Positions 17,381 through 51,661 of a stretch of 64,000 nucleotides of DNA are shown here, piece by piece. Source of the DNA: Thermodesulfovibrio sp. 3907-1M (lineage in GTDB: Bacteria; Nitrospirota; Thermodesulfovibrionia; Thermodesulfovibrionales; Thermodesulfovibrionaceae); assembly GCF_040450955.1 (NCBI RefSeq), contig NZ_CP144373.1, forward strand, positions 124,001 through 188,000, in the 5' to 3' direction. Both the position numbers and the translations under genes were made by a program. Below the pieces are notes generated by a model. The model saw only the letters and a program-made list of their open reading frames with translations. It was not told the origin of the DNA and made no database searches. Every line of letters starts with the position of its first letter. Position 1 is the stretch's first letter.

Positions 17381-17409
17381 TTGACTTTTTTCAATTTTTT
17401 TTATTAGAT
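17381..17409 (+). promoter_or_regulatory. Possible promoter of the tRNA-Pro gene
   Basis: TTGACT at 17381-17386 is separated by 17 bp of A/T from TTAGAT at 17404-17409, 12 bp before the tRNA. The -10 is weak, so this is a tentative call. Confidence 0.35.
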
Positions 17410-18579
17410 TAAATAGTTATCGGGGCGTAGCGCAGCTTGGATAGCGCACCTGCCTTGGGAGCAGGGGGTCGGTGGTTCAAATCCACTCGCCCCGATAGGA
17501 TTTTCAAGGGTTTTTAAATTTGCATTAACCACATCATTAACCACACGTTCACCACATATAGACTCAAGAGCTTGAATAGCGTTCTGAAGCACTGGTAAAG
17601 CCACTTTTGTATAGATCATGGTGGTTGTTATCTGTTCGTGCCCTAACAATGCCTGTATGGCTCTTATGTCTATTCCCTGTTCTAACAGGTGGGTTGCGAA
17701 GGTGTGTCTCAGTTGATGTGGCTTAATGGGTCTGTCAATGCCTGCTTTTTTAGCTATTCTCTTAATAGCCTTTCTAATATCAGTTAAAGGTTTACCCGTA
17801 ACAGGTGATGGAAATACAAGGGGATTGGCGTCGGTTTTAATGCTTTTAAGGGTAATGAGTGCCTGTTTTAGGTGACTGCTCATTGGTATAAATCTTTCCT
17901 TGTTGCCTTTGCCTTTCGTAACTTTTATCAGGTTGTATTCGAAGAAAATGTCTGCCCATCTCAGGTTGAAAGCCTCATTCTTTCTCATACCTGCGTGGTA
18001 AAGACATAAAAACAATGCATAGTAGAATGGTTCTGTTTTAGCAGCGTTGATAAAATTTACAGCGGTTTGAAAATCAAGCGGTTCAGGTAGCCTGTATCTA
18101 TGAGGAAGTCGTTTAACATTTTTAAGTGGTTCAAGGGTGTATCCATGTTCGAAAGCAAATCTTGACATTGCACATAGAGTATTCAGTTCAACGTTAACAG
18201 CCCTGTATCCTTTAATGCTTTTTTCTTTCATCTGTTTAAGTCTTTTAAGTTTGTAGGCTTCAACAAGTTTTGGGGTGATAAGTTCAAAAGAAAAATTACC
18301 AAAGAAAGGGATAAGATTTTTTATAAGTATTCTTTGTTTTTCTTTAAAAGTCTTTTCTGATTGATGGATTCTTACAAAGTCAAGATATTCAAAGGCAATG
18401 TCTGATATGGTTTTTGTGGTTTTCTGTTCTCTCTTAGAAAGATGTTTTTTAAGTTCCTGTTCGTATATAACAGCCTCATCGTAAGTTCCCTGAAATACTT
18501 CATAGTATCGTTTTTTTCTGCCAAGTCTAACGTCAATAAGCCACTTGTTCTGTTCTGGTTTGTAGGGTCTAACAGACAT
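17404..18579 (-). CDS. int: Tyrosine integrase of the element
   Basis: A 391-residue phage-type integrase. It has a short N-terminal arm-binding region, a SAM-like core-binding domain (about 70-160) and a catalytic domain with Arg in GMRKNEAFNLRW, Lys in TKGKGNKERF, HQLRHTFATHLL, LLGHEQI and the nucleophile in TTMIYTKV. Catalysis ends about 60 residues before the stop. The last 30 or so residues (IGASGFEPPTPCSQGR onward) are the antisense translation of tRNA-Pro, so the C-terminal tail would differ in the excised circle. It probably mediates integration into this tRNA. Confidence 0.92.
   Translation of the reverse strand: MSVRPYKPEQNKWLIDVRLGRKKRYYEVFQGTYDEAVIYEQELKKHLSKREQKTTKTISDIAFEYLDFVRIHQSEKTFKEKQRILIKNLIPFFGNFSFELITPKLVEAYKLKRLKQMKEKSIKGYRAVNVELNTLCAMSRFAFEHGYTLEPLKNVKRLPHRYRLPEPLDFQTAVNFINAAKTEPFYYALFLCLYHAGMRKNEAFNLRWADIFFEYNLIKVTKGKGNKERFIPMSSHLKQALITLKSIKTDANPLVFPSPVTGKPLTDIRKAIKRIAKKAGIDRPIKPHQLRHTFATHLLEQGIDIRAIQALLGHEQITTTMIYTKVALPVLQNAIQALESICGERVVNDVVNANLKTLENPIGASGFEPPTPCSQGRCAIQAALRPDNYLI
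17421..17495 (+). tRNA. tRNA-Pro (anticodon UGG)
   Basis: A full cloverleaf can be drawn. The acceptor arm CGGGGCG pairs with CGCCCCG, the D arm is GCGC...GCGC, the anticodon stem CCTGC/GCAGG encloses loop CTTGGGA with anticodon TGG, and the T arm has GGTTCAAAT. The discriminator is A and CCA is not encoded. The gene's 3' end is the junction with the mobile element, and the integrase frame runs antisense through all of it. Confidence 0.95.
17450..17495 (+). other. Presumed left attachment site (attL) in the tRNA-Pro 3' half
   Basis: A tyrosine integrase gene lies directly beside the 3' end of an intact tRNA gene, and the genes beyond are conjugative. This is the usual sign of integration into the tRNA 3' half. 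The core length cannot be set without the matching repeat (attR), which is not in this window. Confidence 0.55.
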
Positions 18580-19899: not shown

Positions 19900-19923
19900 A
19901 AAACTATGTCATGACATAGTTTT
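19900..19923. repeat. Dispersed palindrome, copy 1
   Basis: A perfect 24-bp palindrome centred on ACTATGTCATGACATAGT with A/T flanks. It lies 15 bp upstream of the minus-strand start at 19884. Near-identical copies are at 46638-46665 and 50477-50502. It could be an operator for an element regulator or a weak bidirectional terminator. Confidence 0.8.
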
Positions 19924-20373: not shown

Positions 20374-21504
20374 TTACAACCTGATAGGCATTAAAAAGTA
20401 CTGATACTTACCATCTTCATACTTTTCTTCTAAATACAACGCTGATTCTGGAGTATCCAGTTTTAACTCAATTTCATTTTTTTCGCATCTACTGATTCCT
20501 TCTATTAGATATTTTGCATTAAAAGCTATTATAAGTTCGTCATCGTTGTACTTAATATCAAGTTTTTCTGCTGCATCTCCTATATCTGAATTAGCTTTTA
20601 TTTCAAGCTGGTCTTTAGTAAACTTTAAAATTACTGTTTTATTTATTTCATGAGACACAATGGATACTCTTTTTACAGCATTGATAAAGCTTTCTTTATC
20701 AACTACTGCAACTTTATTATTTCCCTGTATAATTTGAGCTATAATTGGTTCATAGTTAGGATAAGTTCCACTAGCAAGCCTCGTATAAAACTCATCTGTC
20801 TCTTTAAAGCAGATAGTATTTTTAAAAACAATCATCTGTAGGTGGTTTTTAAATGTAATGAATTTTTTCAACTCCAATGCAGACTTTTTAGTAATTAAAT
20901 AACTGTAAACATTTTCCTCGTCTGTTTCAAAATCATATTTAGAACTTGGCATGTATATCGTATATATTGCCAGTCTATGACCATCGCTTGCTACAAATTC
21001 TAAAGTTGTTGCCATTGGGTTATCTTTTATAAGAAGATTATCTAATGCATGATTAATGCTCCCTTGATCACTTAAAGCATACAAAACTTTATCTAGAGCT
21101 TTTATTAGTTTATCTGCTGGCATAAAAATACTGTAATCACATCCACCATCATCCATTTCAAACTTCGGGAAATACTCTTCTTTCCCTGTTAGGATTTTAA
21201 ACTTTGACTTACCCGATTGGATTAAACAATATCCATTATCAAAATCAAGTGTTACAGTATCATCAGGTAAATTTTTAATAATTTCATAAAATTTCTTTGC
21301 ATTAACACAGGTTTTAAAATCTTGACAGTTATTTTCTATAGGGAGATATGTTTTTATGAAAAGTTCCAAATTCGTTGATGCAAACCCTATTAAATCCTGT
21401 TTTACATCAATGAGGCAACTTTCTTGAGTATCTATCCAAGCTACTCCTTGTATTCCCTTTATTTTTTCATATAAATTTTTTCTATCCAATGTTATTGTTA
21501 TCAT
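20374..21504 (-). CDS. dnaN: DNA polymerase III beta subunit (sliding clamp), element copy
   Basis: A 376-residue beta clamp. The three-domain layout is visible, with LDNLLIKD and ASDGHRLAIYT in the second domain and the canonical end YFLMPIRL. It would encircle DNA and bind replication and repair proteins through their clamp motifs. It lies on the mobile element, so it is presumably additional to the host clamp. It is flanked by terminators on both sides, so it is a single-gene unit. CTCCTTCTCC (AGGAGAAGG on the coding strand) provides the ribosome site. Confidence 0.9.
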   Translation of the reverse strand: MITITLDRKNLYEKIKGIQGVAWIDTQESCLIDVKQDLIGFASTNLELFIKTYLPIENNCQDFKTCVNAKKFYEIIKNLPDDTVTLDFDNGYCLIQSGKSKFKILTGKEEYFPKFEMDDGGCDYSIFMPADKLIKALDKVLYALSDQGSINHALDNLLIKDNPMATTLEFVASDGHRLAIYTIYMPSSKYDFETDEENVYSYLITKKSALELKKFITFKNHLQMIVFKNTICFKETDEFYTRLASGTYPNYEPIIAQIIQGNNKVAVVDKESFINAVKRVSIVSHEINKTVILKFTKDQLEIKANSDIGDAAEKLDIKYNDDELIIAFNAKYLIEGISRCEKNEIELKLDTPESALYLEEKYEDGKYQYFLMPIRL

Positions 21505-32509: not shown

Positions 32510-32683
32510 ATGAAAATCATCAAACCAAGAATTCCTGTAGAAGTTGTACTTTTTATGCGTAAAGCACACAAAGTTGTAGGTAACAAAAAAAGGCAGTTAA
32601 GTAAAGAAGAATGCAGAAAATTTAAAAACAAAAAAAATTCAATAATTAAAAACTACACAAAGGAGGTTCAGTATGACTTTTAA
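32510..32683 (+). CDS. 57-residue basic protein
   Basis: AAAGGAGG lies just before the ATG. The product begins MKIIKPRIPVEVVLFMRKAH and is very rich in Lys and Arg (GNKKRQLSKEEC, KFKNKKN), so it is probably nucleic-acid-binding. It overlaps the start of the MazG-like gene by 11 bp. Not recognised. Confidence 0.6.
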   Translation: MKIIKPRIPVEVVLFMRKAHKVVGNKKRQLSKEECRKFKNKKNSIIKNYTKEVQYDF

Positions 32684-32987
32684 TGAGTATCAAGAAAAAG
32701 CGAGACGAACTGCTATTTATCCTGAGGGCTGGGTTTATCCTGCTTTAGGACTTTGTGGGGAAGCAGGGGAGGTGGCGGAAAAATTAAAAAAATACATTCG
32801 TGATGGAAAAACTTGTTCTGAAGTAAGAGAAGAACTTATTAAAGAATTAGGAGATGTTTTATGGTATATTGCAAATCTTGCTTATGAATTTGAAATTTCA
32901 TTAGAAGAAATAGCAGAAAAAAATATTGAAAAACTTTTATCAAGAAAAGAGAGAAACAAATTACATGGTAATGGAGATGATAGATAA
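32673..32987 (+). CDS. MazG-like nucleotide pyrophosphohydrolase
   Basis: A 104-residue all-helical NTP-PPase. Metal ligands are seen in LGLCGEAGEVAEKLKK (EAGE..E) and KELGDVLWYIANLA (ExxD). These enzymes hydrolyse NTPs or dNTPs to monophosphates and often occur on phages and elements. It precedes NrdD by 14 bp, so both act on the nucleotide pool. Confidence 0.88.
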   Translation: MTFNEYQEKARRTAIYPEGWVYPALGLCGEAGEVAEKLKKYIRDGKTCSEVREELIKELGDVLWYIANLAYEFEISLEEIAEKNIEKLLSRKERNKLHGNGDDR

Positions 32988-33001: not shown

Positions 33002-35089
33002 ATGTTTAAAAACATAATAAAGCGTGATGGTCGTATAGTTCCTTTTGACCCTGAAAAAATTACAATAGCCATATCAAAAGCTGGTACAGCAACAGGGGAG
33101 TTTGACTATGAAACTGCAAGAAGGCTAACTATTAAAGTTTTACTTCTTGCTGAGGAATTAATACAGAATCGTGATCCTCATGTAGAGGAAATACAGGACA
33201 TTGTAGAAGAAATTCTTTTAAGTAGCCCTTATAGAAAAACTGCAAAAGCATATATCATTTATCGTGATCAGCATGCAAAAATGCGTGAAATAGCATCACA
33301 GAATAGTATTGAACTTATTGATAGTTATCTCAGTAAAGTAGATTGGCGGGTTAATGAGAATGCTAATGTGCATTATTCTCTACAGGGACTTAATAACTAT
33401 ATATCAAGTGAAATAAGCAAAACCTATTGGCTAAACAAGATTTATCCACCAGAAGTAAGAGATGCATATAAGAATGGAGATATACATATCCATGATCTTG
33501 GGTTAATTAGTGCTTACTGTGTAGGTTGGGATTTGCAAGATTTATTGAGAGTAGGTTTTAGAGGTTTAAAAGGCAGAGTGGAGTCAAAACCACCAAAGCA
33601 TTTCAGAGTAGCACTTATGCAGGCAGTCAATTTCTTATATACATTACAGAACGAGACCGCAGGAGCATCCGCTTTTAGCAACTTTGATACATTATTAGCT
33701 CCTTTTATTTACTATGATAATCTCAACTATAAACAGGTTAAACAATGTATTCAAGAATTTTTATTTAATATCAATGTTCCTACAAGAACTGCGGGGCAGG
33801 TACCATTTACAAATATAACTTTAGATTTAACAGTACCACCGCACTTAAGGGATCAAGCTGTAATAATTGGGGGCGAATATCAGGATAAAACTTATGGAGA
33901 GTTTCAAGAGTATTTAAATATGTTTAACGAAGCATTATTTGAAGTAATGGAAGAAGGGGATGCGTCTGGTAGAGTTTTTTCATTTCCTATTCCGACAATC
34001 AATATAACAAAAGATTTTGATTGGGAAAATCCTGTTGTTCAGAAAATGCTTAAATTAACTGCAAAATATGGAACATTCTATTTTGCAAACTTCGTAAACT
34101 CAGACATGAACCCCGAGGATACATATAGTATGTGTTGCAGGCTTCGTTTAAATAAAAAGGAATTACTTAAAAAAGGAGGGGGTCTGTTTGGTGCAAATGC
34201 TTTAACAGGAAGTATAGGCGTTGTTACCATAAATCTCCCAAGAATTGGATATTTAAGTAGTTCTGAAGAAGACTTCTTTGAAAGACTTGAAAAAATGATG
34301 AATATTGCTAAAACATCTCTTGAAATTAAACGCAAAGTAATTGAAAGACTTACAGAAAATGGATTATATCCTTATGCCAAATTTTATTTAAGAAGTGTAA
34401 AAGAAAAAACAGGCAAATATTGGGCAAATCACTTTTCAACGATAGGTATAATTGGGATGAATGAATCCATAGCAAACGCAAAATGGTTAAATTCAAAAGG
34501 AATATGGACAGAGGGAGGGAAAGCATTTGCATTGAAGGTAATGGATTTCATGCGTGAAATGTTAGTAAAATTTCAAGAAGAAACAGGTAACCTTTACAAT
34601 CTTGAAGCAACACCGGCGGAAGGAACAAGTTACAGGCTTGCAAAAATTGATAAACAGAAGTATCCTGATATAATTACACAGGGCAGGGAAAATCCCTATT
34701 ACACAAACTCAACATGGTTACCTGTAAACTTTACAGAGTCAATAACTTATATTCTTGATCATCAGGATGAACTTCAGAGTAAATATACAGGTGGAACAGT
34801 TATTCATCTATTTTTAGGGGAACAACCAGACCCTGAAAGGCTGAAAAACTTTATAAAGGCAGTTTTTGAAAGATATAAACTTCCTTATATAAGCATTACT
34901 CCCACATTTAGTATTTGCCCTGAATGTGGATATATAGAAGGAGAACATCAAAGTTGTCCAAAATGTGGAAATGAATGTGAAGTTTATTCTCGTGTAGTAG
35001 GTTATTTGCGACCTGTGAGTAGTTGGAATCAAGGAAAAAAAGAAGAGTTTAAAGACAGAAAATATTTGGAATTAAAACTTGTAGCGTAA
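33002..35089 (+). CDS. nrdD: Anaerobic ribonucleoside-triphosphate reductase, element copy
   Basis: A 695-residue class III reductase. It has an ATP-cone at residues 1-90 (KRDGRIVPFDPEKITIAISKA), a ten-stranded barrel core, a C-terminal zinc ribbon (CPECGY, CPKCGNEC) and the glycyl-radical loop RVVGYLRPVSSWNQGK. It makes dNTPs without oxygen. The activating enzyme NrdG is not in this window, so it must come from the host or from the unseen part of the element. The gene ends in a strong hairpin. Confidence 0.95.
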   Translation: MFKNIIKRDGRIVPFDPEKITIAISKAGTATGEFDYETARRLTIKVLLLAEELIQNRDPHVEEIQDIVEEILLSSPYRKTAKAYIIYRDQHAKMREIASQNSIELIDSYLSKVDWRVNENANVHYSLQGLNNYISSEISKTYWLNKIYPPEVRDAYKNGDIHIHDLGLISAYCVGWDLQDLLRVGFRGLKGRVESKPPKHFRVALMQAVNFLYTLQNETAGASAFSNFDTLLAPFIYYDNLNYKQVKQCIQEFLFNINVPTRTAGQVPFTNITLDLTVPPHLRDQAVIIGGEYQDKTYGEFQEYLNMFNEALFEVMEEGDASGRVFSFPIPTINITKDFDWENPVVQKMLKLTAKYGTFYFANFVNSDMNPEDTYSMCCRLRLNKKELLKKGGGLFGANALTGSIGVVTINLPRIGYLSSSEEDFFERLEKMMNIAKTSLEIKRKVIERLTENGLYPYAKFYLRSVKEKTGKYWANHFSTIGIIGMNESIANAKWLNSKGIWTEGGKAFALKVMDFMREMLVKFQEETGNLYNLEATPAEGTSYRLAKIDKQKYPDIITQGRENPYYTNSTWLPVNFTESITYILDHQDELQSKYTGGTVIHLFLGEQPDPERLKNFIKAVFERYKLPYISITPTFSICPECGYIEGEHQSCPKCGNECEVYSRVVGYLRPVSSWNQGKKEEFKDRKYLELKLVA

Positions 35090-36835: not shown

Positions 36836-38185
36836 TCATACAGGTACAACTGTTTCAATTAATTCAAGTGCAGTTCCTGATTTTCTTCTCTCTATTTCGT
36901 CAATTCTATCAAGGAAAGGTTCAGCTTTTATTGCCGTAAGTACCATCTGTTGCTTTTTTATTTGCATCTTTGATTTTATCTCAAACTTTCTTGAAACATA
37001 CCCCTGTGCAATGAAATCAGGGATAAGATTTTTCTCTCTCATTTTATCAACTATTTTCTTTAACACACTCTCTTTTTCTGATTCATAAAGCATAGTAACG
37101 TCAAGTATTTTTTCGTTAAACATGTACTCCTTGCTTAATTCGTAAAGCAAATCAGGTTTAACATAGATAATTCCTTTATGAGTAAAAGCATCCCATTTCC
37201 CTTTTGCTGTCAAATTGATTTTGGGCAACAAAAGTTCAAGCAACTTATCCACATCTAACCAGTTATCAATGCTTTCTATCCTGTAGTTTTTGCTGAACTG
37301 TACAAGCTCCATCTGTCTTGCCTGTTTATCTGCATCCCTGAGCATTTGAGTTAATGGATCTCTGCTTTTAAAGTGATGGTCTCTTACTGCCATTATTGCC
37401 TGCTTCATCCAGAAAACATCTTTTCCTGTAAACTGTTCCGCAAGCCAGTTGCTACTCACTATTGCGTGGTCATAAGAGTTGTAAACTCCACTCAACCTGA
37501 GTTCAGGAATTTTTCCTATATCATGAGCAAGTGCTATTATCACTCCCTGAGGGACAAAGTTTTCAGGTTCTGAATAATTCTGCTTGATTAAATCAATCAT
37601 AACTCTTGTAACTGTTAAAGTATGTTCTTTTAAACTTACTTGAGCAAGATTCTCTCTAACTGAAATCAAATCAACTGATTCGTTGTCCTTTACGTCTATC
37701 ACGACACTTGGAGTATTGCCGTGTTTTTCAAGCATTTTTAAAACATTTATCAAAATATCATAAACGTTCTGCTGTTTAAAAATTTCCTCATAAGGCTTTA
37801 TAACTTCATTGTAAAAAGAACCAATGGTATCAATCTGAGCAAATTCATTCACCATATGAAGTTTAGCAGTTGTAATTTCGTTTTCTTCAACCTTGACGTC
37901 ATTTTCTGTATTTTCTGTTTGTTTTTCTGACGTAACGCTTGAAGTAGAACTATTGATAAGCAAATCTACAGTATAATTATCCGATTCATCTTTAAACTCT
38001 TTGTTATACTTAAGCCATAATGGAGAGAGAGATTCAAGAGGAACTGTCAATGCAGGACATTGTTGTTTGGCCGTAAAAGTTTTTTTTAATTTATCTACCA
38101 AAATGTCTTTTAGCAGGTATATGATTGTTACCAGAACTAAAAAAGCGATTATAAAATAAAAATAATGCATCTCCATTATTCCCAC
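36836..38185 (-). CDS. Membrane-anchored HD-domain protein, candidate MOBH-type relaxase
   Basis: A 449-residue protein. One membrane helix is at about residues 6-26, then a variable linker, and from about 180 an HD domain: KEHTLTVTRV (His), ALAHDIGKIPEL (HD), NSYDHAIVSSNW, AVRDHHFKSRD and MLRDADKQAR. MOBH relaxases (TraI_2 domain) carry such an HD-type metal site, and the gene sits in one operon with a TraD-type ATPase, as in MOBH elements. No other relaxase is visible in the window. A plain HD phosphohydrolase remains possible. Confidence 0.55.
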   Translation of the reverse strand: MGIMEMHYFYFIIAFLVLVTIIYLLKDILVDKLKKTFTAKQQCPALTVPLESLSPLWLKYNKEFKDESDNYTVDLLINSSTSSVTSEKQTENTENDVKVEENEITTAKLHMVNEFAQIDTIGSFYNEVIKPYEEIFKQQNVYDILINVLKMLEKHGNTPSVVIDVKDNESVDLISVRENLAQVSLKEHTLTVTRVMIDLIKQNYSEPENFVPQGVIIALAHDIGKIPELRLSGVYNSYDHAIVSSNWLAEQFTGKDVFWMKQAIMAVRDHHFKSRDPLTQMLRDADKQARQMELVQFSKNYRIESIDNWLDVDKLLELLLPKINLTAKGKWDAFTHKGIIYVKPDLLYELSKEYMFNEKILDVTMLYESEKESVLKKIVDKMREKNLIPDFIAQGYVSRKFEIKSKMQIKKQQMVLTAIKAEPFLDRIDEIERRKSGTALELIETVVPV

Positions 38186-42082: not shown

Positions 42083-43270
42083 TTAATTATTCTGTTTTGC
42101 AATTTCAACTGTATCAACAGGTTCACCGTTCTTAATCGTTTCTTCAATTACCTTAAGAAGTTCTGTAATCTCGCTAACTTCCTTGACGATTTTCTTTCTC
42201 TCTTCCTCAGGTATTGCATCATATATCCTAACAACGATTTCCAGAGCAGAATTTATCATGTTTTTGGACGCATTAAGTTGCAGAATAATTGATTCGGGTC
42301 TTGATATGGATTTTAAGAAATCTTCCTGCTGTTTAATTTTATTTTGCAAGTTCTTAATCTCAATTTTCTTCAGGTACTCAATTTCGCTTCTGTACTTCAT
42401 CGCAAAATCTTCTGCGATTTTTTCTTTTTCCTGTATCTTTCTCTTTTCCTCTTCAAAAGCCTCTTTTTCTTTTTTGAGTTGATCAATTATTTTTGTTGTT
42501 TCAATTAGATTTCTGTTCAACTCCGCAATATCACTTTTGTATGACTCAATGATTTCTTTCAGTCTTTCAATCTCTTCTTCGTAAGCAATTCTCTCCTGTT
42601 CAGATTCAGAAGCAAGTTGTTTTTTGATTTTTTGTTCAAGTTCTTTTTCTTTTTCTGCAAGTTTTTCCTGAACCATCCTCTGTAATTTCTCTATATCAAC
42701 AGTCTTATTTTCCAGTTCTTTTATTTTTCTTTCCTTTTCATCTCTTTGAGAAATCAAGCTGTTTATTTCGTTTTCATATTTTTTCCTGTATATCTTTTCA
42801 ACCGCATTCCAGAAAATCTCTGTTTCTTTTTCTGAAAGCCTGAAAATAACTTTAAGCTCATCTTCTTCTAAATCAATACTGTCTGACTGTAAATCAATTT
42901 TTTCTGCAATCTTTTCTTTAAGTGCATTCAGTTTTTCCTGAATTTTCGCTTTCTTTTGAAGTTTGTAGTATCTGATTCTTTCATCTGGAAGGTGTCTTCT
43001 GAGTAGATTCAAATCATACGCCAGAGCAATTGCTTTTATGTTATCACTTATAATTATGCAATTTGCCCTATCATATCCCAGTTCTTTTAAAACTTTATAT
43101 CTCCCGTAACCATCTCTCAAATAGTATTCCCCATTTTCTTCTTCCACTACAAGGTTATAAACCATTCCTGCATCCTGAATGCTTTTTTTAAGAGCTTCCA
43201 GGTCTATATTTTCTTCAAATACCTGCCTGTCAACCTTAATTTCATCAAGTTTTAATTCCATGATTTTCAT
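42083..43270 (-). CDS. ParB/Srx-domain protein with long coiled coil
   Basis: A 395-residue protein. The N-terminal about 110 residues are a ParB-like domain: LKLDEIKVDRQVFEENIDLE, DGYGRYKVLKELGYD, and ALAYDLNLLRRHLPDERIRY. Then comes a long coiled coil (about 130-330, runs of Glu/Lys/Leu) and a helical end. It lacks a clear ParB DNA-binding HTH. It may act in partition or in regulation of the element. It overlaps the upstream gene by 26 bp. Confidence 0.75.
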   Translation of the reverse strand: MKIMELKLDEIKVDRQVFEENIDLEALKKSIQDAGMVYNLVVEEENGEYYLRDGYGRYKVLKELGYDRANCIIISDNIKAIALAYDLNLLRRHLPDERIRYYKLQKKAKIQEKLNALKEKIAEKIDLQSDSIDLEEDELKVIFRLSEKETEIFWNAVEKIYRKKYENEINSLISQRDEKERKIKELENKTVDIEKLQRMVQEKLAEKEKELEQKIKKQLASESEQERIAYEEEIERLKEIIESYKSDIAELNRNLIETTKIIDQLKKEKEAFEEEKRKIQEKEKIAEDFAMKYRSEIEYLKKIEIKNLQNKIKQQEDFLKSISRPESIILQLNASKNMINSALEIVVRIYDAIPEEERKKIVKEVSEITELLKVIEETIKNGEPVDTVEIAKQNN

Positions 43271-46635: not shown

Positions 46636-48384
46636 TTAAAAAACTATGTCATGACATAGTTTTTTTTCTAAACTGAGATAGTTTTTTAACTTTTGCAAAG
46701 TATTGACATCTTCACATATTACGTAGGTTCTTACTTTTGAACGGGTTAAAGCAACTTTTATTAAATCATCAGTCAAAAATTCTCCATTTACACCATAAGG
46801 GATATAACAGATTACATAATCATACTCAGAACCTGTTGCTTTATGGATGGTTATCGCATAAGAAAGGTCAATTTCTTCAGGTAAACAGTTAACGAGTTTA
46901 TCGCCAAATTTAACGACGTAATATCCGTCATCCCTGCCAGCAACAGTACCAACCTGCCCATTGCTGACTATAAACTCTCCATCAACTCTGAGATTTTTTA
47001 AAAACATTACCCTGTCTCCAACCTTAAAAATACTATCATCACCATTCCCTCTGAATTTATGTTGAAGTCTTAAGTTGATGTCATAAGCTGTCCTTTTAAG
47101 TGGTGTAATTATTTGCCAGTTGTAATTTTTTCTTTCCATGTAAGAAGACAAACTCACTATTTTCTGGATAGCACTGTACTTATTCAATTTCATAAGCACT
47201 CTTTCATTTCTCTGCGTTCTGTAAACCACATTAAGCTTTTTAACAGAGCCTTCAGGCATTGCATTAATTAACTCCTGAAAAACTGCTGAACCCTGTACAG
47301 GGGAAGTCTGTTCAGGATCACCAACAAAAATTATATGCCCGTCAATCTTTGTTAATGCATGATAAAGAATCTGCCATGTAAGCATGCTTGCTTCATCTAT
47401 AACCACAACGTCTGCGTTAATTCTGTCTTTCCTGAATCCTTTAGGCCCAAATCCAAGCAAATCATGTATCGTGGTAGCTGACTCATCTATTCTTTTCGCT
47501 GCCTTTCCTGTTGTGGCTGTAAAAATTACTTTTAATTTGCTGTCTTTTAATTGTCTTACAAGTGTTGTTTTTCCCGTTCCTGCTGTTCCCGTTAAAACGC
47601 TGTATTTCCATGAAAGAATTCCACTCAATTGCTCGGGTAAACCTGATAAAGAGAGAGAAGGAGAGTTTTTCTTTGATACAATTTCAAGACACTTCTGTTT
47701 AAGATAATAAACACGATTTAAAAACACTTTATCGTCAACAAGAACCATCTTCCTCCCTGATGATATGATTTTTATGAATTCATCTAAAGAAATTTTTTCT
47801 CTCAACCTTTTATTTACAGCACTGTAAAGTTCCTCAACTTTTATGTTTTCTTTACCATTTTTATAGGCATGTTCAAGCAAAAAGAAAGCAAGAGGATATA
47901 TTTTCTGTTTTTCATCAATCATTAAAGCCTGTGCTATAACGTCTGTTGAAGGATAATCAAGATGTCCGTTAAGATAAAATTCGTAGGGATACTTACAATA
48001 ATGCAAGATTTTTTCCGATTTCCACTTTGCGATTTTCTTCATCAGAGTAAGTTTTCCAATTACAAATAAATAAACCAGAAAATTCAGAATGATCTGAATT
48101 TTCAACAGCGATTTGTTTTTAAAATTTATTTTCTCTAAATATTGCACTAATTTTGGTATTACTTTTTGAATATCAAAATATTCAGGGATAGAATATTCTC
48201 TAGCATAAATAAAAGGTTTACATCCTTTTCGTTGTTTTCTTTCTCCGCAAAAATTTCCTTTAGCCCCTAAAAGGGAATCACTTATCACATCAGGAATATA
48301 AACCCAGGTTCTGCTTTTAAGCTGAACCCATGTTCCTGATTTGGTTGTTATCTGGTTTATAATTATTCCAGTTATAGTTGGCAT
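46636..48384 (-). CDS. RecD2/TraA-type superfamily 1B helicase
   Basis: A 582-residue helicase. An unrecognised N-terminal region of about 240 residues precedes Walker A (VLTGTAGTGKTTLVRQL), VVIDEASMLTWQIL (motif II), FVGDPEQTSPVQG (motif III) and the SH3-like segment with YAITIHKATGSEYDYVICY near the end, the RecD2 signature. It would move 5' to 3' on DNA. The 39-bp repeat array begins 20 bp upstream of its start, in the expected promoter position. The TraA-type relaxase domain is absent. Confidence 0.85.
   Translation of the reverse strand: MPTITGIIINQITTKSGTWVQLKSRTWVYIPDVISDSLLGAKGNFCGERKQRKGCKPFIYAREYSIPEYFDIQKVIPKLVQYLEKINFKNKSLLKIQIILNFLVYLFVIGKLTLMKKIAKWKSEKILHYCKYPYEFYLNGHLDYPSTDVIAQALMIDEKQKIYPLAFFLLEHAYKNGKENIKVEELYSAVNKRLREKISLDEFIKIISSGRKMVLVDDKVFLNRVYYLKQKCLEIVSKKNSPSLSLSGLPEQLSGILSWKYSVLTGTAGTGKTTLVRQLKDSKLKVIFTATTGKAAKRIDESATTIHDLLGFGPKGFRKDRINADVVVIDEASMLTWQILYHALTKIDGHIIFVGDPEQTSPVQGSAVFQELINAMPEGSVKKLNVVYRTQRNERVLMKLNKYSAIQKIVSLSSYMERKNYNWQIITPLKRTAYDINLRLQHKFRGNGDDSIFKVGDRVMFLKNLRVDGEFIVSNGQVGTVAGRDDGYYVVKFGDKLVNCLPEEIDLSYAITIHKATGSEYDYVICYIPYGVNGEFLTDDLIKVALTRSKVRTYVICEDVNTLQKLKNYLSLEKKLCHDIVF
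46638..46665. repeat. Dispersed palindrome, copy 2
   Basis: A 28-bp perfect palindrome centred on ACTATGTCATGACATAGT with six A / T flanks. It encodes the last residues of the RecD-like helicase (KKLCHDIVF) and lies 17 bp before the next minus-strand start. Confidence 0.8.
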
Positions 48385-48404
48385 ATAAATATATATTCCT
48401 CGGG

Positions 48405-48755
48405 CAGATTACATTGACTAAAATGGTCAATTTAATTTGAAAACAGATTACATTGACTAAAATGGTCAATTTAATTTGAAAACAGATTACATTGACTAAA
48501 ATGGTCAATTTAATTTGAAAACAGATTACATTGACTAAAATGGTCAATTTAATTTGAAAACAGATTACATTGACTAAAATGGTCAATTTAATTTGAAAAC
48601 AGATTACATTGACTAAAATGGTCAATTTAATTTGAAAACAGATTACATTGACTAAAATGGTCAATTTAATTTGAAAACAGATTACATTGACTAAAATGGT
48701 CAATTTAATTTGAAAACAGATTACATTGACTAAAATGGTCAATTTAATTTGAAAT
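48405..48755. repeat. Nine tandem 39-bp iterons
   Basis: Nine copies of a 39-bp unit, virtually identical; only the last few bases of copy 9 differ. Each holds the inverted repeat TTGAC-TAAAATG-GTCAA. The unit is 13 codons long, which creates a false repeat ORF on the minus strand. Such directly repeated palindrome-bearing arrays are typical of plasmid origins, centromeres (parS) or regulator-binding arrays. It sits between the RecD-like helicase gene and a 470-bp non-coding region. Confidence 0.92.
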
Positions 48756-49227
48756 GTAAATGCTCCTCCCTTACGGATACGGGAAAGTACTTCCCGGCAG
48801 AGGGGTTAAAATTAGCTTAATTTGCCCTTGTTTGCCAAAATCCTTTTTTTAATTTTTGTAAATTATTGAAAAATAAAAACTTTTTTGCGATTAACCGGTG
48901 TAAGGAATATAATACATATTAATAGCTCATTATAAAGCGTACGATTATAGATCCAACTAAAGAGAGTATGTATTATTAGATTCTTATTGTTGGTTTGGTA
49001 TTAGATATTGAATACTATATACAAAACCTACAATAAAGAAAAAAACTTTCAATAACTACTTCGTAGTTATTGAAACAGGAAACGCAAAAAAACTTTGCAA
49101 AAATTACAAAGCCTGTTTTTCTTTCCTCAAAAGAAAACCATGACCTGTTTAAGTGAATTCCAGGGCATTATGGATCACGTTAATCACATGCTTTCTTATT
49201 GAGAAAAACCAGAAGTAATAAATATAC
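48756..49227. other. Non-coding region with hairpins, possible origin
   Basis: No ORF can be supported here. It begins with a GC-rich patch containing CGGGAA-AGTAC-TTCCCG (48780-48796). Then an AT-rich stretch (48840-48960) follows, and a perfect 13-bp hairpin with 3-nt loop at 49047-49075 (TTTCAATAACTAC / GTAGTTATTGAAA), followed by a second folded segment ACAGG...CCTGTTTTT (49075-49120). Iterons plus AT-rich DNA plus hairpins would suit oriV or oriT. Confidence 0.55.
49047..49075. repeat. Perfect 13-bp inverted repeat with TTC loop
   Basis: TTTCAATAACTAC pairs with GTAGTTATTGAAA. There is no T tract directly after it, so it is not an ordinary terminator; the neighbouring ACAGG/CCTGTTTTT structure could act as one. 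Confidence 0.8.
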
Positions 49228-49392
49228 ATGCTGGTAAATATTGAAAAAGCAGCTTACATGTTAAGTTTAAAACCAGAACAGTTAAAGAGAGCCTTAAAAA
49301 AAGAAAAAATTCCTCATATAAGGCTCACGGGAAGAAACTACCTTTTCAATGTGGAGGATTTAAAAAAATGGGTAGAGAAGAGAAAAAATTAG
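49228..49392 (+). CDS. Excisionase/MerR-type HTH protein 1
   Basis: A 54-residue protein read from the ATG at 49228. It has the short winged-HTH layout of excisionases: NIEKAAYMLSLKPEQLKRALKKEKI, then an IRLTGRNYLFNVEDLKKWVEK wing and helix. It overlaps the next gene by 25 bp. Three such genes in a row suggest a set of small regulators of excision or transcription. Confidence 0.65.
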   Translation: MLVNIEKAAYMLSLKPEQLKRALKKEKIPHIRLTGRNYLFNVEDLKKWVEKRKN

Positions 49393-49574
49393 AAAAAATC
49401 CTCATTACAACCAAAGAAGCAATGGAACTGCTTGGCATAAAAAGCAGAACTCTTCTTAACTGGTACATGGAAAAACACAACCTTCCATACATAAAGATAG
49501 GGCATTTTTTGAGATTTCCACTTGAAGAACTAAAAAAATGGAAGGAGAAAAAATTTGAAAAAATTGCTGCTTAA
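49368..49574 (+). CDS. Excisionase/MerR-type HTH protein 2
   Basis: A 68-residue protein with the Xis-type HTH: ILITTKEAMELLGIKSRTLLN, LPYIKIGHFLRFPLEELKKW. The recognition-helix and wing pattern is clear. It overlaps genes on both sides (25 bp and 20 bp), so the three are translated together. Confidence 0.75.
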   Translation: MGREEKKLEKILITTKEAMELLGIKSRTLLNWYMEKHNLPYIKIGHFLRFPLEELKKWKEKKFEKIAA

Positions 49575-49962
49575 CGAAACGGAAGTTTGCAGAATTCTCA
49601 ATATTAAACCAAACGTTTTGGTTTATGCCGAGAGAGCAGGGATTGTTCTGCAAAAGGTTAAAATTGGCAGATACTATCTCTATGACGTTGAAGACATCAT
49701 CAATTGGATAAAAAATTCCCTGAAATTTGACGCCACAATCCCGGAGGAACTTTCAACATTTGAAGATGATGAAGCCATAGAAGGTATAGACGCTCTTGCT
49801 TTAGCACTTTCCTTGCCTTACAGATACACGTTCTATAAGGTCAAAAACAAAGTTATCCCTGCTGAAAAAGTGAATGGTAAATACAGATTCAAAGTAAAAG
49901 ACATAAAAGCATGGATTCATTCCTTAAAAAAAAGGAGGGGCAATGAAGTGGATAAATCATAA
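49555..49962 (+). CDS. Double excisionase-type HTH protein
   Basis: A 135-residue protein that appears to hold two winged HTH domains: LLNETEVCRILNIKPNVLVYA with VKIGRYYLYDVEDIINWI, and, after an acidic linker, DALALALSLPYRYTFYKVKN with VNGKYRFKVKDIKAWIHSL. It overlaps the previous gene by 20 bp and the DUF457 gene by 20 bp. It may bind DNA as a bridging factor. Confidence 0.65.
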   Translation: MKKLLLNETEVCRILNIKPNVLVYAERAGIVLQKVKIGRYYLYDVEDIINWIKNSLKFDATIPEELSTFEDDEAIEGIDALALALSLPYRYTFYKVKNKVIPAEKVNGKYRFKVKDIKAWIHSLKKRRGNEVDKS

Positions 49963-50476: not shown

Positions 50477-50502
50477 AAAAACTATGTCGTGACATAGTTT
50501 TT
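50477..50502. repeat. Dispersed palindrome, copy 3
   Basis: ACTATGTC-GT-GACATAGT with A/T flanks, differing from copies 1 and 2 only at the central base. It lies 34 bp after the DUF457 stop and just beyond a terminator of the opposite strand. Confidence 0.8.
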
Positions 50503-50971: not shown

Positions 50972-51661
50972 TTGAGAGTAATAAAAAAATACATGCAATT
51001 TTTAATAAAAATTGGCTACCTTATTCCTTTTATCGTTGTAAGAAAAGACCCCGATAAAAACGCTTATCTTGTTCACATTTCAGGAACAGACCTTTTTGCA
51101 CTTTTGCCAAAGACTCATGCAGCACAGGACTACAAAATCGGCGATTCAGGATGGGCGGCAGTTTTTCAGGTTAAAGGGGCAACAATTTTCCTTAGCCAGA
51201 AAAGCCCTCAATACATCAGAAAAATTCTTGAGTATTTTTTCAGGGATATTTTAACCAATTACGGATTACAGATAAAAAAGGTTGCTATTTTTCAAAATCT
51301 TTTCAAAATTCTAATAAAAACTGACAGGCAATACACTAACAAAGAGCTCAATGAAATTTTTCACGCTTACATAAAAAACTCTGATGAAATCAAAAAATAT
51401 TTCCCTGAAGGCAAATTTGTTTTTGTTCGTTACAAACCGGACATTGAAGACCTTATAGCAAGCCTGCTTGTTTTTGAAGAAAAAATCAGCAGGGTTATTT
51501 ACTTTCGCTCTCTTGGGCAGGCAACCGTATATACGGAAAATGGTTCTGTGGGGATTCTCGTAGGAGAAAAAGGGAAGAATCTTATCACGGCAAAAAAGAT
51601 ATTACAAAGCCTTGTAGGTAATATTGATATTGAAATTAAATCATCTCAAGGAGGTACTTAA
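50972..51661 (+). CDS. NusA-like S1-KH-KH protein
   Basis: A 229-residue protein resembling bacterial NusA without its N-terminal RNA-polymerase-binding domain. An S1-like barrel (GTDLFALLPKTHAAQDYKIGD, VKGATIFLSQKSPQYIRKIL) is followed by KH1 (NYGLQIKKVAIFQNLFKILI) and a KH2 with YTENGSVGILVGEKGKNLITA, where GEKG is the KH loop, ending NIDIEIKSS as in NusA's WKIDI end. It would bind RNA and perhaps alter termination. The start is TTG at 50972 or ATG at 50993; no clear ribosome site. First gene of the right-hand operon. Confidence 0.65.
   Translation: MRVIKKYMQFLIKIGYLIPFIVVRKDPDKNAYLVHISGTDLFALLPKTHAAQDYKIGDSGWAAVFQVKGATIFLSQKSPQYIRKILEYFFRDILTNYGLQIKKVAIFQNLFKILIKTDRQYTNKELNEIFHAYIKNSDEIKKYFPEGKFVFVRYKPDIEDLIASLLVFEEKISRVIYFRSLGQATVYTENGSVGILVGEKGKNLITAKKILQSLVGNIDIEIKSSQGGT

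Follow-up and report, generated by a model that had tools for sequence, protein, structure and literature searches.

What does an array of nine identical 39-bp repeats do directly in front of a helicase gene? The array lies at positions 48405-48755 of a 64,000-nucleotide stretch of DNA from Thermodesulfovibrio sp. 3907-1M (contig NZ_CP144373.1, positions 124,001 to 188,000; hereafter, the window). A preliminary description, drawn from the letters and a list of open reading frames, had offered three candidate roles for it: an origin, an oriT or a partition site.

Structure and uniqueness of the array

The array consists of 9.0 copies of a 39-bp unit, CAGATTACATTGACTAAAATGGTCAATTTAATTTGAAAA, which follow one another head-to-tail and contiguously; TRF placed it at 48405-48754 and reported a period of 39, a match of 100%, no indels and a score of 700, and direct reading of the sequence agreed. 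Thus, the nine 39-bp repeats of the preliminary description are present, but they are fully identical rather than near-identical. Each unit is an imperfect dyad with TTGAC-N7-GTCAA at its centre. The inverted pair TTGAC/GTCAA, correctly seen earlier in every unit, forms the middle of longer imperfect dyads of ~35 bp with an AAAA linker between them. The dyad scores 13 of 17 pairs, a value that 0.66% of composition shuffles attain, which is modest evidence that the unit may serve as a protein site. Hairpins formed by a single unit are weak (~-5 kcal/mol with DNA folding parameters).

The core of the unit, ATTGACTAAAATGGTCAAT, occurs nine times in the window, where shuffles gave an expectation of 0.06, and has no further occurrence outside the array in the 1.94-Mb genome. 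The array itself was found in none of 60 related genomes. A scan for tandem repeats over 924 kb of the genome returned no other array made of five or more perfectly matching units that are 20 bp or longer; judging from their consensus units, the remaining tandem arrays in those 924 kb resemble a CRISPR locus, repeats of the dispersed TCATTCCGAGGG type or coding repeats. From the core count, the uniqueness in the genome, the absence from the 60 relatives and the 924-kb scan, we conclude that the array reflects neither chance nor a background habit of this genome. No degenerate copies flank it.

A CRISPR array was rejected, since the units are directly contiguous, identical across the full 39 bp and devoid of unique spacers. 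One of the six reading frames is open throughout the array, and a minus-strand ORF of 141 aa, composed of 13-aa repeats, runs through it. We judged this ORF to be non-coding, as it has a TTG start, lacks a ribosome-binding site at the usual spacing and overlaps the start of the helicase gene; a coding role of the array is unlikely. Rfam gave no credible match for the array region.

The divergent region and its flanking genes

The array stands in an 843-bp gap (48385-49227) that separates the leftward helicase/TraD genes from the rightward HTH genes leading to the tra genes. It begins 20 bp upstream of the helicase ATG at 48384, with only a GAGGAA ribosome-binding site (48396-48401) in between, and the helicase gene (46636-48384, minus strand) reads away from it. 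The 582-aa product is a RecD2-like SF1B helicase by its matches to Pfam AAA_30, AAA_19 and UvrD_C_2, to PDB 3e1s and to the RecD2 model TIGR01448 (E 1e-46, under the curated cut-off), which bears out the earlier assignment of this neighbour as RecD-like. Within the order, the sequences that match the helicase do so mainly over its SF1 core. Close homologues were found neither for the helicase in viral and genome contigs nor for one of the HTH proteins in viral contigs, and none of eight other plasmid RecD-like helicases had a comparable array just upstream.

On the opposite side of the gap, three small overlapping genes on the plus strand encode HTH_17 proteins, and PHROG excisionase families match them. 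The first (49228-49392) specifies an excisionase-type winged-HTH protein of 54 aa (Pfam HTH_17, E 4e-8; PHROG excisionase, E 4e-5). The second (49368-49574), which overlaps the first, specifies a 68-aa protein (HTH_17, E 8e-11) with a weak match to RdfS (PDB 8dgl, E 0.09). The third (49555-49962) encodes 135 aa with HTH_17-type domains in two stretches (E 6e-11); AlphaFold, used without an alignment, gave a low-confidence model (pLDDT 53) with two winged-HTH-like units.

Beyond the array, the remainder of the gap (48756-49227) contains a GC-rich patch and two hairpins, one within 48763-48796 of the patch, at 48780-48796, and the other at 49047-49075 with perfect 13-bp arms. The hairpins had been noted before and are confirmed; the GC-rich patch is present but only mild (~40% GC across 48745-48825), and the AT-rich stretch is not distinctive, as most of the gap, including the array, is 72-78% AT. 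The AT content is flat, with no distinct DNA-unwinding region in the gap, and no DnaA box was matched in 48301-49300. Promoter-like matches in the region are no commoner than in shuffles; a weak minus-strand site of this kind lies at 48936-48909. The sequence CTCCTCCCTTAC beside the array was considered as a nick site and dropped, because in 101 genomes it was no commoner than its reversed control. It is common to the array locus and a sister element only, where its spacing to ACGG differs, and matches elsewhere look unrelated.

The array lies within an integrative and conjugative element

The array lies inside an integrative and conjugative element (ICE) of ~75.8 kb. On the left, the element is bounded by attL (17454-17510), a 57-bp repeat in the 3′ end of tRNA-Pro, and on the right by an identical copy, attR, at 93213-93269 in window coordinates (L023). 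The gene for its tyrosine integrase (17404-18579, minus strand; Pfam Phage_integrase, E 1e-38) overlaps tRNA-Pro, so that att direct repeats with an adjacent integrase mark the element as chromosomally integrated. Its conjugative nature is indicated by F-type T4SS genes (TraC, TraF, TraN, TraU, TraE, TraK, TraB/TrbI, TraV, TraH, TraG and TrbC) and an SXT-TraD-like coupling protein. An HD-domain protein (36836-38185) adjoins TraD; its matches are to HD domains only and lie below the cut-off, and it falls outside the MOBH-like family model, but by sequence and position it may be a candidate for a MOBH-like relaxase.

The element also encodes TraT, a CHC2/Toprim primase, a second integrase, an XRE and ImmA/IrrE regulator pair and an actin-like (ALP/ParM-type) segregation-type ATPase (83598-84530 in window coordinates). 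It has its own DNA polymerase III beta clamp (DnaN; 20374-21504), the host copy being at G000:C1:1563267-1563626. Beside the primase and nuclease genes lie an anaerobic ribonucleotide reductase (NRDD, 33002-35089) and MazG (32673-32987), nucleotide-supply genes such as large phages have. A KOW-domain, NusG/Spt5-like protein is encoded next to the actin-like gene (83169-83582 in window coordinates; L022:19169-19582), and a protein ahead of the T4SS genes (50972-51661) has a weak KH/NusA resemblance; the two are possible element-encoded transcription elongation factors. An IS605 OrfB/TnpB-like gene with a Cas12f1-like TNB domain (L022:7630-9009) sits between traV and traH as an insertion. A further att-like sequence, nearly identical to the other two, lies 4.4 kb past attR (97597-97655, L023) and would represent a second small element or a remnant in tandem with the ICE.

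Relatives of the element and of the array

No relative shows conservation of the array site. The genus contains a sister ICE (G001) whose TraC is ~60% identical to that of the present element; the two share T4SS, XRE/ImmA, VRR-NUC, SLT and RDF-like genes, but the helicase, the HTH set and the array are all absent from the sister. The sister element carries two related 12/24-bp repeat arrays of the TGCTGACAGCAT family (L039, G001:C15; 11599-11675 and 15156-15290), one of them non-coding and the other within a gene that adjoins SSB and weakly matches Lin1244_N (E 0.012). The arrangement resembles an initiator gene with internal iterons, of which another set lies 3.5 kb off. Among the named relatives found for the transfer genes, the closest are those on F-type conjugative plasmids from Desulfosarcina sp. 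BuS5, Geobacter anodireducens (pSD) and Pelobacter propionicus (pPRO1), with TraC identities of 41-44%; these plasmids, unlike the ICE, are autonomous, and the parts scanned hold no comparable array.

The DNA of the region matched no plasmid or phage record. Searches for tandem TTGAC-N7-GTCAA motifs matched 4 viral and 12 genome contigs, in some of which the arrays look coding. None of these contigs has the helicase, HTH or T4SS genes of the array locus; apart from the repeat ORF, the cross-matches were limited to two genes in L061 that are unrelated and of housekeeping type. This last contig, of Bacteroidetes origin, carries a ATTACATTGACC-N5-GGTCAAT array, which was rejected as a relative, its likeness being taken as convergence.

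Possible roles of the array

We suggest, with a probability of roughly 0.4, that the array serves as an iteron-like platform for proteins at a DNA-processing origin of the ICE, for replication or transfer, and that it also controls the flanking promoters. An ICE-encoded DNA-binding protein, most plausibly at least one of the three HTH_17 proteins, whose genes lie 470 bp from the array, would bind the nine dyad units cooperatively. After excision, the resulting nucleoprotein complex would mark the origin and help to open the DNA, and the RecD-like helicase from the adjoining gene would extend the opening; by occupying the divergent gap, the same complex could regulate both the helicase gene and the HTH-to-tra genes. 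In support of this reading, the array sits where the helicase, coupling-protein and HD genes diverge from the HTH and T4SS genes, its nine identical units are dyads and unique in the genome, and the element has its own clamp, primase and helicase; the sister ICE also carries iteron-like repeats, though different ones.

As in an iteron origin, there are multiple non-coding direct repeats, here nine identical intergenic units. The adjacent Rep initiator gene of such an origin has no counterpart among the neighbours that was recognised as a Rep family, and an unrecognised initiator near the array is possible; the DnaA box and the distinct AT-rich unwinding region are likewise missing from the gap. 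Further points against an origin are the unit length, as 39 bp exceeds that of usual iterons and does not correspond to an integral number of helical turns, the lack of a comparable array at the eight other plasmid helicases, the absence of helicase, HTH set and array from the sister ICE, and the want of conservation of the site in relatives. The earlier suggestion of an origin or oriT thus fits a divergent control region inside an ICE, but nothing here discriminates between the two. The element-encoded clamp and primase slightly favour a vegetative origin over an oriT. One site could also serve both replication and transfer, as the replication that maintains the SXT/R391 circle depends on oriT and the relaxase (PMC4489591). 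It seems to us distinctly unlikely that the array represents an ICE origin of a new type, where excisionase-type winged-HTH proteins assembled on the nine dyads would, with an element-encoded RecD-like helicase and no classical Rep or DnaA box, both start DNA processing and gate the conjugation genes.

The repeats start 20 nt before the helicase ATG with divergent genes on either side, three HTH_17 genes adjoin them and the ICE has XRE and ImmA-like regulators, all of which would also suit a purely regulatory operator array, bound by an HTH or XRE protein that controls the helicase and HTH-to-tra genes and has no part in an origin. Nine equal units over 351 bp are long for an operator, however, and the region shows no excess of promoter-like matches over shuffles, so that we consider this role possible but doubtful. 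The perfect identity of the nine units points to recent expansion or homogenisation, and together with the absence of the array from all relatives examined and of degenerate flanking copies it would be expected of a functionless minisatellite, produced in intergenic mobile-element DNA by recent slipped or rolled-out tandem expansion. The identity had earlier been ascribed to recent amplification or strong selection; recent amplification explains it equally well, and strong selection is not established. Against such a neutral origin are the lack of any similar array in the 924 kb, the above-chance dyad of the unit and the position in a control region, which make it rather unlikely.

A centromere-like partition site, for the ParB-like protein encoded at 42083-43270 or for the actin-like ATPase, appears improbable and is disfavoured in the form first proposed, with the ParB-like protein as its partner. 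Arrays of direct repeats ahead of genes are typical of centromeres, the ParB-like protein weakly matches a ParB N-terminal region (PDB 4umk, E 0.003) and the ICE encodes an ALP-type actin-like protein. On the other hand, such a site would adjoin the par genes, as centromeres of the actin-like type normally do (srpC, SXT/R391; PMC4489591), whereas the actin-like gene is 35 kb off and the ParB-like gene 5 kb from the array. Moreover, the scanned ICE proteins included no visible ParA, and the ParB-like protein has neither a recognised DNA-binding HTH domain nor a Pfam match above the cut-off. Least probable of all is an element acting at the RNA level, in which the leader of the helicase transcript would include the array, and the array would function there in antitermination or translation control. 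The 20-nt distance to the helicase ATG, the weak minus-strand promoter-like site and the KOW-domain and weakly KH/NusA-like proteins would agree with it; the weakness of the unit hairpins and the lack of a credible Rfam match argue against it.

Comparison with known systems

In SGI1, the iterons of oriV lie between rep and xis (PMC7433901), and the present array resembles them in being a set of intergenic direct repeats near xis-type genes in a chromosomal mobile element. While the SGI1 system comprises four GC-rich iterons of 17 bp along with a DnaA box and a rep gene (PMC7433901), the ICE has nine 39-bp AT-rich dyads with no Rep or DnaA box recognised. The oriT of IncA/C coincides with an AT-rich region of divergent promoters, in which direct as well as inverted repeats occur (PMC5587640), and the AT-rich divergent gap, the repeats, the F-type T4SS and the SXT-TraD-like coupling protein of the ICE recall such MOBH-type systems (IncA/C, SXT/R391; PMC5587640, PMC4489591). 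The IncA/C repeats, however, are 14 bp long and partly overlapping (PMC5587640), and in the ICE neither a MobI-like protein nor a nic site was identified, the putative relaxase being the HD protein. A third likeness is to the winged-HTH filaments of the RdfS, BldC and lambda Xis type, as excisionase-type genes here head conjugation-bound genes beside repeated DNA: rdfS leads a conjugation operon close to oriT (PMC11963761), and BldC multimerises on direct repeats (PMC5859096). No clear consensus is shared by RdfS sites (PMC11963761), and the repeats bound by BldC follow each other at about one turn (PMC5859096), whereas the ICE units are exact 39-bp repeats and putative binding sites.

The array is thus real, unique and well placed; its kind, iteron-like repeats in an ICE, is ordinary, and its sequence is without a match elsewhere in what was searched. 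To our knowledge, ICE transfer and replication origins are known from only a few model families. A compact and unique array in a well-bounded ICE offers a precise 351-bp target for an origin outside these families and, if it is an origin, a useful start for genetic tools in this host group; it would be of little importance if merely an operator or a minisatellite.

An ICE-specific palindrome

The palindrome AACTATGTCATGACATAGTT, set in near-perfect palindromes of 24-28 bp, has three copies in the 1.94-Mb genome, all of them in the ICE; the general form is AAAACTATGTC(A/G)TGACATAGTTTT. No copy was present in 20 related genomes, nor was there a match to the reversed control pattern. One copy is at 19900-19923. 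The other two, a perfect palindrome at 46638-46665 and a copy with one central change at 50477-50502, bracket the helicase-array-HTH-YdjM module on its left and right. The palindrome is a good candidate for a site at which an ICE protein acts, be it an operator or parS-like, and is in some respects a cleaner lead than the 39-bp array.
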